Source: Pseudomonas baltica (GTDB lineage Bacteria > Pseudomonadota > Gammaproteobacteria > Pseudomonadales > Pseudomonadaceae). From it: a stretch of DNA of 64,000 bases. The DNA lies in NCBI RefSeq assembly GCF_031880315.1, contig NZ_CP134771.1:5142501-5206500 (forward strand), in the 5' to 3' direction. Of this stretch, positions 53,399 to 62,602 are shown in pieces; positions within the stretch are counted from its first letter, which is position 1, and the number at the start of each line of letters is the position of its first letter. Under the pieces are notes generated by a model. The model made no database searches, had not been told where the DNA came from, and saw only the letters and a list, made by a program, of their open reading frames with translations. The translations under genes and the position numbers were made by a program.

Positions 53399-53475
53399 CG
53401 GGGCGTAGCGCAGCCCGGTAGCGCACTTGCATGGGGTGCAAGGGGTCGAGTGTTCGAATCACTCCGTCCCGACCA
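53399..53475 (+). tRNA. tRNA-Pro (GGG), phage integration site
   Basis: A 77-base cloverleaf with CCA encoded. Acceptor CGGGGCG/CGTCCCG (one G-T), D-arm GCGC/GCGC, anticodon stem CTTGC/GCAAG around ATGGGGT (anticodon GGG) and T-arm GAGTG/CACTC with TTCGAAT. Its 3' half is the presumed attachment core, since the integrase gene lies just downstream, facing it. The gene is intact. Confidence 0.95.
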
Positions 53476-53490
53476 TTTATTCCTGAGTAA

Positions 53491-53535: not shown

Positions 53536-53568
53536 GCGCAAAATATGCGCAAAACTGGCGCAAAACTA
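53536..53568 (-). repeat. Three tandem 11-bp repeats, candidate integrase arm-type sites
   Basis: GCGCAAAATAT (53536-53546), GCGCAAAACTG (53547-53557) and GCGCAAAACTA (53558-53568) follow each other without gaps, each with an invariant GCGCAAAA. The last overlaps the integrase stop codon. Consecutive ~10-bp direct repeats next to an IHF site are the form of lambda P'1-P'2-P'3 arm sites bound by the integrase N-terminal domain. Confidence 0.65.
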
Positions 53569-54672
53569 TCCCGCAATACCGCTGATATCCAAGTCCGCTT
53601 CGACCTCAGACCAGACCACGTCCGCGTGATCCCGCTGATAGTTGCGCGTCATCTCCTCGCTGGCATGACCAGCTATCTTCTGCCCGTCCTTTCCGGCGCG
53701 CTTGTACAGGTGCAGCGACAGGGCGCGGATCTCGTGAAAGCCTGGCAACTCTTCCTCTTTCCATCCCTTGTAGCAACCCGCCGCCTCGCGCGCATCCTTG
53801 AACGCCCTGGTCAGGAATCGCTCGTCGACCTTGGTCCAGTGGTCCTTTCCCTCGCGCTTTTTCTTCCGTTCGGGCCGGCGGTGGACCAGGTAGGGCGATA
53901 GCACGTCATCACGGCACCGGGTGAGCACGGCCTGCAATTGAGGCGTGATCTTGATCTTGAGCCAGCCCGCGTCGGCCGCCTTGGCCGTTTTGTTCTGCAC
54001 CACGAACAGGAAGCCATCCCGGGCGTCTTCAAATTTCATGTCGAGAATGTCGCCACGGCGCTGGGCGGTGATCAACGCCAGGTCGATCGCGTTCTGAAGC
54101 CACAGCGGGGTCTTGCCTCGAATGGCAGTCAGACCATCGACCGTATGGCGCTTGCGCTGCTTCTTCTCGATCTTGGGAATGGTGCTGGCGGCCGGGTTAT
54201 CGGGGCACAGGCCTTTGGCGGCCGCATGCGTGAACACGTCGGCGAGCAGGGCGCGCGCCTGGTTCGCCGAGCGTGCCGTGAGCGGCTCAAGGAACTCAGC
54301 CACCATGCGGATGGTGATTCGATCAATGACCATGCTCCCCAGCGCTGCGCGGATCTGCTTGAAGCGGACTTTGTACAGGTCGAGCGTGGCCTGGGCGAGC
54401 TCGCGCTGCGGCAGCACCTTGCTTTCGTAGTCGTCGAGGAATCCGCCGAGGGTGATGCTGTGTTCGTCCAGCACGGCGGATACCAAGTCACCGCCGCGCA
54501 GGAATGTCAGGTTCAGTTGCTGGGCGGCGTCGATCGCGCGCGCGCGGTCGGCGCCAAACTGAAACCATTTGCCGTCCGTGGGCCGCCGGTAGCGATACGA
54601 GCCCCGGCGCGCATCGAAGTACAGGTTCACCGGCAAGCCCTTGTTGGCCTTGTTGCGCGGGCGCGGCACCAT
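53566..54672 (-). CDS. int: Phage tyrosine integrase
   Basis: A 368-residue tyrosine recombinase. The N-terminal ~65 residues form an arm-DNA-binding domain (NLYFDARRGSYRYRRPTDGKWF), as in lambda-type integrases. A SAM-like core-binding domain follows (about 72-160). The catalytic domain shows Arg205/206 (AQRRGDIL), Lys228 (NKT), His313-x-x-Arg316 (HEIR), His336 (GHAS) and nucleophile Tyr345 (TRNYQ), so it is complete. It faces tRNA-Pro, overlaps the excisionase stop and belongs to an early-region operon. Confidence 0.95.
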   Translation of the reverse strand: MVPRPRNKANKGLPVNLYFDARRGSYRYRRPTDGKWFQFGADRARAIDAAQQLNLTFLRGGDLVSAVLDEHSITLGGFLDDYESKVLPQRELAQATLDLYKVRFKQIRAALGSMVIDRITIRMVAEFLEPLTARSANQARALLADVFTHAAAKGLCPDNPAASTIPKIEKKQRKRHTVDGLTAIRGKTPLWLQNAIDLALITAQRRGDILDMKFEDARDGFLFVVQNKTAKAADAGWLKIKITPQLQAVLTRCRDDVLSPYLVHRRPERKKKREGKDHWTKVDERFLTRAFKDAREAAGCYKGWKEEELPGFHEIRALSLHLYKRAGKDGQKIAGHASEEMTRNYQRDHADVVWSEVEADLDISGIAG

Positions 54673-57255: not shown

Positions 57256-58539
57256 TTATGAGGCGAACAGGTTGAGCTGCTGCTCTTCCTGGGCTTTGGC
57301 TTGCTGGCGCTGCTGGACTGCTGCAAGTTCGTGTTCGATGCGCGCGCGGGCGATCGCCATATAGGCTTCGTCCATTTCGCAGCCGATAAAATTGAAGCCT
57401 TCGCGCATGGCGGCCTTACCAGTGCTGCCGCTGCCCATAAACGGATCGAGCGCCGTGCCGCCGGGTGGCGTGACCAAGCGCAGCAAGTAGGCCATCAGGT
57501 CGGTAGGCTTCACCGTTGGGTGGTTGTTGCCCTTGGTGTTGGTGAGCGCGACCTTGCGCAGCGTGTTGCCCTGTTCGAACTGGGCGCCAGGGTCTTCTAG
57601 GCCTTCGTGGCGATCGGCCCGGCTTGTTTTGGCGCAGTAGAAGAAGCGCGCCGCTGACCCCGCATCGATCCTGCGAGACCCTGGCTTCATCTGAAAACCA
57701 ACCACGCCGTCGTTGCTGCTACCGGCTGAAGGCTCGCCGGCACGTCCTCGGTACATCGCACCGTATGCGTTCTGCCCTGCGCGGGGCGTATCGTTCACGC
57801 TCACCGGTGCCAGCTGGCCGGGTGCGTCCGGAAATGCCGCTAGTACTTCATCGCTGCCGTCGTGGACCAGATTCGCCGGCCAGCGCCCGAGGGTCGATGC
57901 TTCAGTTGCTAGCGCCACGCCAGCCGATCGGCCGCCGACGTAGTTCCCGCCGCGCATGTCGCTGGTGGTGGGTCGCTCCCAGTTCCTGGCCAAGGCGTCA
58001 TGGTCGATCGCCGTAACGCGGCACGCGTCGATATTGATGGCGCCGGTGCCGTGAGTGAGGACGTTTTCGGCAACGGTTCCGATCAGCGGCTTGCGGGCCA
58101 CGGTGATCGGCTCTAGGGATGGCTTCAGCGCCGTTCCCCACCCGGCCATGCCTTGCACATCCTTGCCGACGTTCCTCGACTTGGGGAAGCCTGAGCCGTA
58201 CACCCAGGCGATCATGTCGCGGATCTCGAACCCCGCATCCTCGATGCGGACAGCCATACGATGCTGGGTTCGGGTACCCGCGAAAGCCAGCAGGTGTCCG
58301 CCGGGCTTGAGAACCCGCAGGCACTCCGCCCAAATCTCAATGGTCGGTACATCGCCGTCCCACGCTAGACCCATAAATCCTTTCATGACCGCACCTTCTG
58401 TGGCTGCGCTCCTGCCGCCAGGTCTCCGACTAGTCAGTCCATAGGGTGGGTCGGTGACGATGCTGTCGACCGAGTTGTCGGCCATGGCGCGCATGGCCTC
58501 GAGGCAATCGCCTAGGTGAAGCTCATGCGATGGATTCAT
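57256..58539 (-). CDS. Phage DNA adenine/N4-cytosine methyltransferase
   Basis: A 427-residue amino-methyltransferase. The catalytic motif TDPPYG (29-34) comes near the N-terminus and the AdoMet-binding FMGSGSTG (367-374) near the C-terminus, the order of the beta group. The target domain lies between. There is no restriction enzyme gene beside it, so it is an orphan, likely protective or regulatory. Its ATG overlaps the stop of the cytosine methyltransferase gene (ATGA), with GGAGG as SD. Confidence 0.9.
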   Translation of the reverse strand: MNPSHELHLGDCLEAMRAMADNSVDSIVTDPPYGLTSRRPGGRSAATEGAVMKGFMGLAWDGDVPTIEIWAECLRVLKPGGHLLAFAGTRTQHRMAVRIEDAGFEIRDMIAWVYGSGFPKSRNVGKDVQGMAGWGTALKPSLEPITVARKPLIGTVAENVLTHGTGAINIDACRVTAIDHDALARNWERPTTSDMRGGNYVGGRSAGVALATEASTLGRWPANLVHDGSDEVLAAFPDAPGQLAPVSVNDTPRAGQNAYGAMYRGRAGEPSAGSSNDGVVGFQMKPGSRRIDAGSAARFFYCAKTSRADRHEGLEDPGAQFEQGNTLRKVALTNTKGNNHPTVKPTDLMAYLLRLVTPPGGTALDPFMGSGSTGKAAMREGFNFIGCEMDEAYMAIARARIEHELAAVQQRQQAKAQEEQQLNLFAS

Positions 58540-60617
58540 GCTGCCTCCGCTCTAGTTGCGCTCTTACGCCATGGATCGTTCGCCCGTGCCAGCGCCGCCA
58601 TGGGCGGTGGGCTGACACTGTTGCCGCACATGTGCACTTGCTCGGTCTTCGTGAATTTCCGGCCATCGGCGCCCTTGTCGATGATGTAGTCGGCGGGGAA
58701 GCCCTGGGCGCGGTAAAGCTCATGCGGCTGCAGCATCCGCAGGCAGATGTCGACGATCACATACGGGGTGCCCTTGACGATGACGGTGACCAGGCCCAGA
58801 CGGTCCTTGGTGGTGATGGTCGCCGAAGGCTCGCCGATGTCGCTTGCGTGGCTGGCACCGTAGTAGCTGATCAGGAACGCGGCAACGCGCAGGGCGCCTT
58901 CCTCGTGCTCGGGCGAAAGCTTCAGCTCAACCAGCGAGCTTTTGCCGCCGCCGCCCGCTGTGATAGTTGGCGCTGGCTCATCAATGGCCTGCCCAACGCT
59001 GGCGCCGAACTGGCGCTCCATGAACGCCGTCATCAGACCGTGGTGTGTGCCGCCGGCGCTGACGGTGTGAAGTGGGGCCTCGACGTCACGCGCATCGCAG
59101 TTGCCGCGCAAGTGCACCAGGTTGGCGGACACCAGCTGCTGCTGACTGCCGGTGTTGGTGACCGTGGTCATAGGCTCGTCCAGCGGCTTGGCGTCGGTGG
59201 TGTTGAAACCGCCGTTCATCTGCGCCATGAAGGCTGTGCAGACGCCCATGGCGTGCGCGGCGCCGGCCGGGCGTTGGTAGTTGCCGCCGCTGGTGATGGT
59301 CGGCAGCGGCTCGTCGAGGGCCTTGCCCGCGTCATCGAAGCGGAACTTCACCAGATGCGCGGCAGCGATCGCGGTGTCGGCCTTGGCCGTGATTGTGTAG
59401 GCCGGTTCGTTTCCGGGGCGGGGCTCGGTCTGGCCGGCGCGGCCTCCGACGCCCACCATTAGAAGGCTGATCAGCGTCAGCTCGCCGCGGTTGGCACATG
59501 TCACGGTCGGCAGCGGCTCGAGCGGGTCGTTCACGCGGTCGCTGCCCTGGTGCGTAGCCGGCGCGATGATGGGACTGGCCATGGCAAACGACCCGCCGCG
59601 CGGCCAGGCGGTCACCGTTCGCAGCGGCTCGTTGGCGGACTGGGCCAGCTCGCCAGACCAATTCGCAATTGGCACGATGAACGGGTCAGCGCTGTCGATG
59701 ACGAACTTTTTCAGGCCCTTGGCCACGCGCCGCAGCGTGGCTGGGGCCAGGTCCTTCTTGCGGCCGAAGATGCTTTTGCTCGGCACGGTCCAGTCGATGC
59801 AGTCGGCGGCCGTGCGCCACTTCTGCTGGCCCTTGGCGGGCTGGCGGGCGTGGGTAGGCCCTGGCCACACGATTGGCTGGCCATCGCACCGGGCGATCAT
59901 GAACAGGCGCTCGCGGCTGGTCGGCGCGCCGAAGTCGCAGGCCTTGATCACACGCCATTCGACGGCATAGCCCATGCCTTCCAGCAGAGCCACGAAACGG
60001 TGCCAGGTCGTGCCGCGGCGCTTCGGGTTTGGCACCAGGAATTGCTCGTGCACCGGCACAATCTCGCCAGGCGCCGCGACCACATGCTTGATGGTCTGCT
60101 TGCCCTTGGCGTCGGTGACCGTCACGAGCTTGATTACTCGGCCGCTGGCCTTGTCGCGCTTTGCGATCAGCGGGCCCCATTGCAGGATCTGCTTCACATT
60201 TTCCAAGCTGATGACCCGAGGGCGCTTCTTGCCGGCCCATTTCAGGCCGATCCACGACAGATTGCGGATCTCGCGCTTGCGCGGCTGGCCGCCAGCCGCC
60301 TGGCTGTGGTGGGTGCAGTCGGGGCTCATGTGGAACCAGCCCACGGCGTGGCCGCCGCATTCCTCGTCCGGATCGCCCTCGAACACGTCGGTGGTGTAGT
60401 GCCGGGCCGCCGGGTGGTTGGCGGTGTGCATGCTGATCGCTGCAGGGTTGTGGTTCTTGGCCACGGTCACCGCGCGGCCCAGGCCGATCTCCAGCCCGGT
60501 ACCGGCGCCGCCGCCACCACAGAAGAAGTCCACCACGATCTCTTCATCTTGAGGATCGAAGCCCAGTCTGTACTGTGTTTTAAAATCATGCTGGTGCTTT
60601 TTCTGGTGTGCATACAT
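58536..60617 (-). CDS. Phage DNA cytosine-5 methyltransferase with repeated EPxxTIT units
   Basis: A 693-residue C5-methyltransferase. Motif I is DFFCGGGGAGTG (~30-41). The catalytic Cys101 is in SPDCTHHS, the pattern of this phage group instead of PCQ; then ENV (139-141), SRERLF (motif VIII), RAQGFP (IX) and GNSVSPP (X). Between VIII and IX, residues ~329-602 contain eight units of the form (D/N/G)EP-x-x-T(I/V)T-x-x, spaced 30-48 residues. It is longer than standard Dcm (~470). Probably methylates phage DNA against host restriction. Confidence 0.9.
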   Translation of the reverse strand: MYAHQKKHQHDFKTQYRLGFDPQDEEIVVDFFCGGGGAGTGLEIGLGRAVTVAKNHNPAAISMHTANHPAARHYTTDVFEGDPDEECGGHAVGWFHMSPDCTHHSQAAGGQPRKREIRNLSWIGLKWAGKKRPRVISLENVKQILQWGPLIAKRDKASGRVIKLVTVTDAKGKQTIKHVVAAPGEIVPVHEQFLVPNPKRRGTTWHRFVALLEGMGYAVEWRVIKACDFGAPTSRERLFMIARCDGQPIVWPGPTHARQPAKGQQKWRTAADCIDWTVPSKSIFGRKKDLAPATLRRVAKGLKKFVIDSADPFIVPIANWSGELAQSANEPLRTVTAWPRGGSFAMASPIIAPATHQGSDRVNDPLEPLPTVTCANRGELTLISLLMVGVGGRAGQTEPRPGNEPAYTITAKADTAIAAAHLVKFRFDDAGKALDEPLPTITSGGNYQRPAGAAHAMGVCTAFMAQMNGGFNTTDAKPLDEPMTTVTNTGSQQQLVSANLVHLRGNCDARDVEAPLHTVSAGGTHHGLMTAFMERQFGASVGQAIDEPAPTITAGGGGKSSLVELKLSPEHEEGALRVAAFLISYYGASHASDIGEPSATITTKDRLGLVTVIVKGTPYVIVDICLRMLQPHELYRAQGFPADYIIDKGADGRKFTKTEQVHMCGNSVSPPPMAALARANDPWRKSATRAEAA
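58812..59633 (-). repeat. Eight-fold EPxxT(I/V)T repeat region inside the cytosine methyltransferase
   Basis: The units read NEPLRTVTA, LEPLPTVTC, NEPAYTITA, DEPLPTITS, DEPMTTVTN, EAPLHTVSA, DEPAPTITA and GEPSATITT. Single copies of a PxxTIT segment occur near motif IX in ordinary C5-methyltransferases. Here it appears multiplied across the target-recognition region. Confidence 0.75.
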
Positions 60618-60701
60618 GAAAAGTCCTTGCCTATCTGGCGCGGGTCAAGTTATTGGGGTATTAATAATGTGAAATCCAGAAGCTAAAAAAGGTGGGGCGG
60701 C

Positions 60702-61721
60702 ATGCTCAAGGAAGCGCTTAAGTCGTTGTATAAACAGGAATTCGTCTCAGAAGAAATTATTACTTCTATGTTTGCGAAGCGAGGATTAAATTTTGAGTTT
60801 CGTTCCTACCAGTTTGGAGCCGTTACTGGTTTTTTAATTGAGGGGCTCGGAGAACAAGCGTTTGTGCCAACTAGAAGTGTGTCTTATCTTAATAAAAGGC
60901 TTGGGCGGGTTACCACGAGCCAGCTGCGTGCCTTAGAAAGCAAAATACCCCTGCCGCTTTTTATGGGATTTGGAGATATGGAGTCTCAGATTCACAGTGT
61001 TCAAAAAGCAGGGGGGACGGCAGCAGACCTGTGGCTCGTTGAAATATTTACCCCGGCGGTGGCTTCTGTTTACATGCGCCGATACTTTGAAAAGAGTCAC
61101 GCGCTCAGTCCTTACTTACAAATTATTTATGAGAGCGTCGAAGCATATTTTATGGAGATGGATCATGTCGCAATAATGGCGCTATTGCCTGTTATTGAAG
61201 GTGGGCTGAGAAACGTTCAAGAGATCAATTTGGGGCATTCAGATTCGAATGTCAGAACTGAAGAGTTTGGGAAGCGTCTCGGTGAAATGATCATAAAGCA
61301 CGGAGAAAGCCAAGCTCCTGGTGTGAGTATTTATCCGGGCTCGTCAAGCGCCGACAACGTGAGCTTAGATTTTTTTTCACATGTGAATCCACAGTGCGAT
61401 GTGATCAATGCATTTAGAATATTCTTTAAAGAGGTTTTGTATAAACCGAGTTATGGCGCCTCGGATAGTTTTAATCGGCATTTGATCCTGCATTTGCTAA
61501 GGAGCGATTTTGCCTCCCCGGCTAATTATGTCAGGGTTTTTCTGCTCTTGGCCTACATCACATTTTGTGAACGTTTGACCAACTTCTCCATCCCTATGCT
61601 TTGGCCGGGTTCGGATGAGGGAAGTGTACGTATTGCAGAGTATTTCGCTGAGCTTTCTCTTAAGGTAGGTCAGCCTAGAAGCCGAATGTGGCGTCCAGGC
61701 GAACCTATTCTGTGCAAGTAA
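60702..61721 (+). CDS. AT-rich phage cargo gene with HEPN-like RX4H motif
   Basis: A 339-residue protein read opposite to the prophage early operon and visibly richer in A/T than all neighbours, so probably a transferred cargo gene (moron). It has no signal peptide or membrane helices. The C-terminal third has SFNRHLILHLLRSDFASPANYVRVFLLLAYITF: Arg259 and His264 form the RX4H spacing of HEPN ribonucleases, followed by the long hydrophobic helix usual in these domains. An EGGLRNV segment lies near residue 165. A defence or superinfection-exclusion role is inferred, not shown. Confidence 0.6.
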   Translation: MLKEALKSLYKQEFVSEEIITSMFAKRGLNFEFRSYQFGAVTGFLIEGLGEQAFVPTRSVSYLNKRLGRVTTSQLRALESKIPLPLFMGFGDMESQIHSVQKAGGTAADLWLVEIFTPAVASVYMRRYFEKSHALSPYLQIIYESVEAYFMEMDHVAIMALLPVIEGGLRNVQEINLGHSDSNVRTEEFGKRLGEMIIKHGESQAPGVSIYPGSSSADNVSLDFFSHVNPQCDVINAFRIFFKEVLYKPSYGASDSFNRHLILHLLRSDFASPANYVRVFLLLAYITFCERLTNFSIPMLWPGSDEGSVRIAEYFAELSLKVGQPRSRMWRPGEPILCK

Positions 61722-61786
61722 ATATCGATATAATGGAATGACACTGTAGGCGTCCGAGGAGTGATCCCCCGGAAGTTATTATCGGC

Positions 61787-62602
61787 TTACTTCGCGTCAA
61801 ACGCGCCCAGCGCCAGTGTTGCATTGGCCCCTACTTGTTGCTGCAGCACCGTCTTGAACTCCTGAGCAATATCCTCACGCTGCACTTCCTCACCGAGCCA
61901 GCGCAACTTCAGGACCGGTTGAGAGCCGCTGGTGATCACCGAGATACGCAACTGAATCTGCTGCTCGGTCAGACCTTCGAACGGAATCACGTTGAACAGC
62001 AGCGCGGTCGGCAGGGTTTCTTTGCTGCGGGCTTCTATCTGGTCCATCGCGCTACGGCTGGCGCTGGTCTCGCCGACGCTAGTTTCGGATTCGCTGGTGG
62101 CCTTGACCGTGATGGTGCGCACCGCGGCGATGGCCTTGGCCACCGGAATAGCGGTCCCTTCGGCGTCGACAGGCGTCAGATACTGGTGCCAGTCCTCGAT
62201 CCAGTCGCTGAGGTCTTTCTGGGACATGGCGCGCCCGCCGATCTCCTGTGCCGCCTTGTAGCCTGCGGAGGGCTTCAGCTTCAGCACTGCCCGATCATCT
62301 GCGTGGCCAGGCGCTTTCTCGTCGCCTAGGTTGAACAGCAGGATGCAGGTCATCTGATCTTGGTCGATGAATCCCTTCGCCGTTTTTATAGAGCGGTCGG
62401 CAACGTAGGCGCTGAAGTCAGCCAGCGAGTGCGTCGAGTAGATGCCACGGAAGCGACTGCGACCGGCCTGCCATTTCTCCAGCGCTACGACTTGGTATTC
62501 GTTCGGCAGCACCACGATGGGGGTCTGCGCTTCTAGGGTTTTGCCGGCCGCCGCCAGGGCGGTATCGGTGATGAGCTGGATCGCTTCTTTGGTGAGGGAC
62601 AT
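61787..62602 (-). CDS. DUF2303 family phage protein (YfdQ-like)
   Basis: A 271-residue protein of the DUF2303/YfdQ family: VVLPNEYQVVALEKWQAGRSRFRGIYST, LADFSAYV, AVLKLKPSAGYKA, SQKDLSDWIEDW. These are found in temperate phage early regions, often beside recombination genes. Function unknown. Confidence 0.8.
   Translation of the reverse strand: MSLTKEAIQLITDTALAAAGKTLEAQTPIVVLPNEYQVVALEKWQAGRSRFRGIYSTHSLADFSAYVADRSIKTAKGFIDQDQMTCILLFNLGDEKAPGHADDRAVLKLKPSAGYKAAQEIGGRAMSQKDLSDWIEDWHQYLTPVDAEGTAIPVAKAIAAVRTITVKATSESETSVGETSASRSAMDQIEARSKETLPTALLFNVIPFEGLTEQQIQLRISVITSGSQPVLKLRWLGEEVQREDIAQEFKTVLQQQVGANATLALGAFDAK

Follow-up and report, generated by a model that had tools for sequence, protein, structure and literature searches.

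What is encoded by the single AT-rich gene that runs against a block of minus-strand early genes in a prophage of Pseudomonas baltica, and why is it carried there? The gene occupies positions 60702-61721 (+) of the window, by which we mean the whole analysed stretch of 64,000 nucleotides (contig NZ_CP134771.1). It is present in one copy in its own genome and consists of an open reading frame (ORF) of 339 amino acids (aa) with an ATG start. A preliminary description of this DNA had proposed an undescribed anti-phage ribonuclease (RNase) or superinfection-exclusion factor with a HEPN-type motif. Our analysis favours, with a probability of about 0.7, a stand-alone HEPN endoribonuclease that serves as anti-phage cargo of the prophage. 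The HEPN assignment of the window protein is likely. The anti-phage role is likely as well because of the gene's location, which is its basis: relatives lie at the P2 Z/fun site, and the slot filled here holds PtuB elsewhere.

Invariant motifs on a predicted HEPN fold

Evidence for the assignment comes from conservation. In an alignment of 92 of 94 sequences, the window protein included (two shorter than 200 aa were dropped), N258-R259-H260-x3-H264, an RX4H motif on helix 257-266 (61473-61493, +), is invariant in all 89 sequences covering it. The second HEPN motif, E166-x3-R170 in helix 154-177 (61197-61211, +), is equally constant, E166 and R170 as well as P163 and L169 being invariant in 92/92 sequences. 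R259 and H264 stand where the preliminary description had placed them, and the free variation among homologues that it regarded as damaging to a HEPN-type motif is not seen at either residue. Taken alone, the RX4H motif of the window protein is weak evidence and within chance expectation, because 39% of 5000 shuffles of the protein contain at least one (mean 0.47 per shuffle). It is the conservation that carries the signal, and the remaining R-x4-6-H pairs of the protein (126/133 and 127/133) are not conserved.

The passages of a HEPN review dealing with these motifs (PMC3710099) describe N, D or H as the typical residue after R in Rx4-6H, for many families a second motif, Ex3[KR], whose acidic residue lies in helix 2, and a position of Rx4-6H at the end of helix 3, ahead of helix 4. 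R259-H260-x3-H264 has the polar residue after R, E166-x3-R170 in helix 154-177 provides the Ex3[KR] of helix 2, and the positions of both motifs on the modelled helices agree with this description.

The predicted structure is a helical bundle, and the solved structures aligning best with it are HEPN domains. In the ranking, sacsin HEPN comes first for both models, followed by RnlA, TM0613 and 3c18, with AbiV and Csm6 lower. A Foldseek search with the model gave no match at E <= 0.001 in PDB or viral models. Separately, we note BFVD model A0A8S5NQ77 (Siphoviridae sp. ctpbe1), an unnamed 217-aa phage protein with a Foldseek probability of 1.00 and a TM-target of 0.62, yet with E 0.025. In the model, the RX4H helix precedes the long hydrophobic helix noticed before (273-291). 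With a hydropathy peak of only 1.37 over 19 residues, it resembles a helix buried in the core and not a membrane span. The N-terminal alpha/beta region, residues 1-60 (60702-60881, +; helices 2-11 and 17-27, strands 32-38, 41-48 and 51-56 in the model), is a candidate for a trigger-sensing part. Its mean entropy is 2.01 bits as compared to 0.96-1.15 bits for the motif-bearing helices. Variability of the N-terminal region alone is no mark of a sensor, because the C-terminal end is equally variable (2.11 bits).

Comparison of the window gene with the copy in locus L001 gave a pS of 0.76 and a pN of 0.20. As pS lies far above pN, this comparison shows, at the level of sequence, an intact frame under purifying selection; dS is saturated, and therefore no dN/dS value is given.

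An unnamed family on mobile elements

The window protein has no match at E <= 10 in Pfam, PADLOC (v2.0.0, 2023), PHROGs or NCBIfam, and a profile search of PDB sequences was likewise without match. Searching Pfam with 33 family members touched eight families, with one to three members each at E 0.044 or worse. These rows were taken as chance, as were a PADLOC 'Orf5' row for one of the 33 members (E 0.004) and two phmmer rows (E 0.023 and 0.65). By these searches the protein's family is unnamed and has no model in the four libraries, its likely kind, HEPN, being a known one; to this extent 'undescribed' was the right word. Two protein searches returned 32 and, by profile, 93 proteins, and the nearest named relative, at 94%, is a protein of Pseudomonas sp. 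PS01301. With tblastn, 50,697 phage records gave no match; 3 of 72,556 plasmid records matched, one across 80% of the query. In the genus, 8 of 298 genomes contain a match to the gene at E <= 0.001, five remote and three close, the latter being its own genome, G256 and G076 (two pieces, one with an internal stop).

A third protein search with a mixed alignment yielded 51 proteins, of which 45, together with one locus, were sorted into two remote groups, a shorter one (16 rows, about 330 aa) and a longer one (30 rows, about 480 aa). Both keep NRHxxxH without exception (16/16 and 30/30), with G as the next residue in 16/16 and 29/30. Ex3R is invariant in the shorter group; in the longer one E is invariant and the basic residue has moved to +5 in 29/30. 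The hhalign probabilities of the window family with the two groups are 99.9% and 98.7%. One member of the longer group is labelled PcfJ-like by one source. In this group (L024, L027, P0095-P0136) a conserved C-terminal extension without Pfam match follows NRHxxxHG. If the predicted function is right, an unclassified HEPN family and two remote relatives, for which these searches gave no Pfam match either, are added to the anti-phage RNases.

Nine genome loci and six viral contigs were fetched. In a Vibrio locus (L002) the gene is part of an array and has attC-like repeats to its left and right, which we take to mark integron cassettes. TniQ, TniB and a protein with TnsA-like and integrase-core domains adjoin the gene in locus L007, for which reason we regard this locus as a Tn7-like element. 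In locus L006 smpB is near the relative. Locus L012 carries it between tail sheath and tail fibre genes; this gene is found at 100% in 5 of 5426 E. coli genomes, and in the two that were opened it lies between the sheath (FI) and tail-fibre assembly (G) genes. The P2 gene order is FI, Z/Fun, G, H (PMC3091744, in the part concerned). PMC9519451 names the fun-bearing locus as a second defence-enriched locus of P2-like phages, and the hotspot treated in PMC9122126 is a different one, near cos.

The GC content of the gene is below that of its surroundings by 0.03-0.19 in the loci compared (12 of the 15 fetched). Its orientation is opposed to that of the nearest identified phage gene in six of seven loci (window, L043, L012, L010, L005, L001); L015 is the one co-oriented case, and the relative in L013, judged by eye, is co-oriented too. 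These neighbourhoods show a mobile-cargo distribution of the family in prophages, integrons and Tn7-like elements.

Two observations concern genes beside relatives. In G256, the ORF immediately upstream of the relative, on the same strand (L021:2560-3195, -), encodes a 211-aa protein with the stretch RNTMAHG. This protein has no Pfam match and a weak PADLOC RTasHEPN match (E 0.0072), and is possibly another HEPN protein. In two other loci the relatives are followed directly by similar ORFs (L005:11054-11746 and L014:8925-9611) that share AAAYIGARATS by eye, possibly an accessory gene, which is absent from the window.

The prophage and the slot beside DUF2303

The window gene belongs to a prophage, as indicated by an integrase gene (53566-54672, -; phrog_7244, E 1e-37) beside tRNA-Pro and by a pair of 54-bp repeats. 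The left attachment (att) repeat is exact and lies at 53428-53481 (+) in the 3' part of tRNA-Pro (53399-53475); the second copy starts at G000:C1:5245359, 49.4 kb further on. Between them are genes for terminase, portal, a tail tape-measure-like protein and an S24 repressor, the last of which is encoded on the minus strand. Compared with phages, 20 kb of the structural region gave a single 41-bp match and nothing else. Ten minus-strand ORFs from 53.5 to 63.4 kb were scanned, and all but one, of 70 aa, match phage families. The other long plus-strand ORFs there are antisense to minus-strand genes, most of these family-matched, which bears out the view of the gene as the only long plus-strand gene in a minus-strand early operon. 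Its low GC content holds as well: 0.449 versus 0.611 for the remaining prophage sequence within the window and 0.607 for the chromosomal part. At the right prophage end lies another AT-rich stretch (L018:16812-19876, about 98311-101375 in window-equivalent positions; ORF GC 0.46-0.47), possibly further cargo. It encodes a DUF6236 protein on the minus strand, and its three plus-strand ORFs match nothing in Pfam or PADLOC.

The gene fills an interval from 60618 to 61786, between the start of a DNA methyltransferase gene (58536-60617, -; phrog_116, E 9.4e-101) and the stop of a DUF2303 gene (61787-62602, -; PF10065, E 8.8e-63; phrog_210). Locus L035 is similar to the window up to 60617 and again from 61787. 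There, in phage SC_9_H1H8_2017 (L029) and in L057, short ORFs occupy the slot in place of the gene. The earlier description of the gene as prophage cargo is supported. A partnership with the methyltransferases as a sensor of foreign nucleic acid had also been suggested. It finds no support, as relatives adjoin tail genes, lie near smpB, or are part of an integron array or a transposon.

The DUF2303 protein occurs in 36 of 298 genus genomes at 38 places, 30 of which, chosen by DUF2303 protein match and including our own, were examined (L030-L059) for an ORF of at least 150 aa with a GC content up to 0.50 within 1.5 kb of DUF2303. On the 3' side, 15 of 30 loci have such an ORF, all counter-oriented and none co-oriented; applied to the 5' side, this test found counter-oriented ORFs in two of 30 loci and again no co-oriented one. 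When the longest slot ORF per locus was compared by BLASTP, only the window gene and that of L043 were related, leaving 14 groups. Fourteen of the 15 slot ORFs were scanned directly with PADLOC; for L043, whose ORF equals P0007 but for one residue, P0007 was scanned. Hits at E <= 1e-5 were obtained for four of them: PtuB (L049, E 9.5e-72), PDC-S31 (L046, E 3.4e-23), OLD/AriA/GajA-like (L054, E 7.9e-12) and SLATT-like (L045, E 8.6e-7). None of the remaining 11 reaches this level. PtuB belongs to the Septu system, and the assignment of L049 is by the PtuB match. The 3' side of DUF2303 has the look of a hotspot for defence cargo: in half of the loci examined it carries AT-rich genes facing the other way, which belong to unrelated families and include known defence genes, and the slot could be mined for new systems. 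Among the papers found that mention DUF2303 and prophages, none treats a hotspot in its title or abstract start, and the literature searched gave no description of the slot.

Alternatives, mode of action and known systems

A HEPN RNase in a prophage could also be the toxin half of a toxin-antitoxin module, curbed by a partner and kept for prophage maintenance instead of defence. HEPN toxins of HEPN/MNT modules are common, according to the relevant part of PMC7641770, and the RNTMAHG protein upstream of the G256 relative would suit a partner. By eye, no recurring partner gene stands beside the gene in the loci listed, and inside the gene there is no minus-strand ORF of at least 60 aa (the search did not extend to antitoxin RNAs or very small partners), so that we consider a toxin unlikely. 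We think it somewhat less probable still that the protein is a HEPN-fold phage protein without RNase activity which binds nucleic acid or regulates, for example in early-operon control. Its place among early genes would fit, and some HEPN domains merely bind nucleic acids; the review passages quoted above assign that role to domains without conserved charged residues (PMC3710099), and here both motifs are invariant. Moreover, relatives are not confined to phages, an integron array and a Tn7-like element each carrying one, and related loci have the same slot without the gene. Prophages often carry exclusion genes and a hydrophobic helix follows the motif, but a membrane-linked superinfection-exclusion protein that blocks entry is highly improbable, given the low hydropathy peak, the inclusion of helix 273-291 in a confident globular model and the invariant polar residues, which exclusion leaves unexplained. 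Of the two functions first proposed, the anti-phage RNase is retained, by location, and exclusion by means of a membrane helix is not.

By analogy with HEPN enzymes, the predicted RNase would dimerise and stay silent in the lysogen. An infecting phage might switch it on, perhaps via the variable N-terminal region, whereupon it would cut RNA with R259 and H264 independently of metal; cleavage would halt phage growth at the expense of the cell. A promoter and terminator scan found one and no sites, respectively (1.6 and 1.7 expected), with no terminator-like site between DUF2303 and the methyltransferase. If these two genes form one transcript, it is antisense to the window gene, and a shut-off of the RNase gene at induction by this route is possible and unproven. 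In its widest form, which we hold to be tentative and rather doubtful, the proposal is that the family comprises HEPN RNases that work as single proteins and sense infection, with prophages, integrons and Tn7-like elements as their carriers, that its site here is a defence hotspot 3' of DUF2303, and that on induction the antisense DUF2303-to-methyltransferase transcript acts as a self-immunity switch without inhibitor protein. The constant orientation of the slot cargo makes it possible to test directly how a prophage escapes the defences it carries.

Regarding known families, several DUF4209 (PF13910) members share by eye a P-x2-E-x3-R stretch and then an R-N-rich motif ending in HG. As parent family DUF4209 was rejected, hhalign being not significant (probability 2.0 and 0.95); the window protein has no Pfam match to it at E <= 10 and its genome no PF13910 match at E <= 0.001. 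RnlA and AbiV differ in that the window family has no PDB match by profile, and AbiV typically lacks the motif H, as stated in the review's account of it (PMC3710099). The DefensePredictor work (PMC13092281) reports four validated HEPN-domain systems, among them DS-11 (CBS and HEPN); another of them could conceivably be the window family. P2 fun is matched in site, the fun sequence not being part of the comparison, by the E. coli relative between FI and G; the window slot is another one, beside DUF2303.

The closest worked example, as an analogy, is Tha, a tail-activated HEPN anti-phage system of S. aureus prophages, in which H270A abolishes protection according to the sections of PMC11087260 describing it. 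Comparison with one Tha-1 sequence revealed no relation (hhalign probability 0.4; BLASTP E 0.11). An inhibitor gene, ith, lies antisense in Tha; the window gene has no antisense ORF of at least 60 aa, shorter ones not having been examined, and the 80alpha gene annotated as excisionase has 201 bp and 66 codons. Both are single prophage-carried proteins of similar length (301 aa in Tha versus 339 aa) with an unassigned N-terminal part and a C-terminal HEPN domain, predicted in our case, with R-x4-H (RNSIMH in Tha). The Tha translation contains by eye an E-x3-R stretch (ELMCR), and both genes would lie opposite an antisense transcript.
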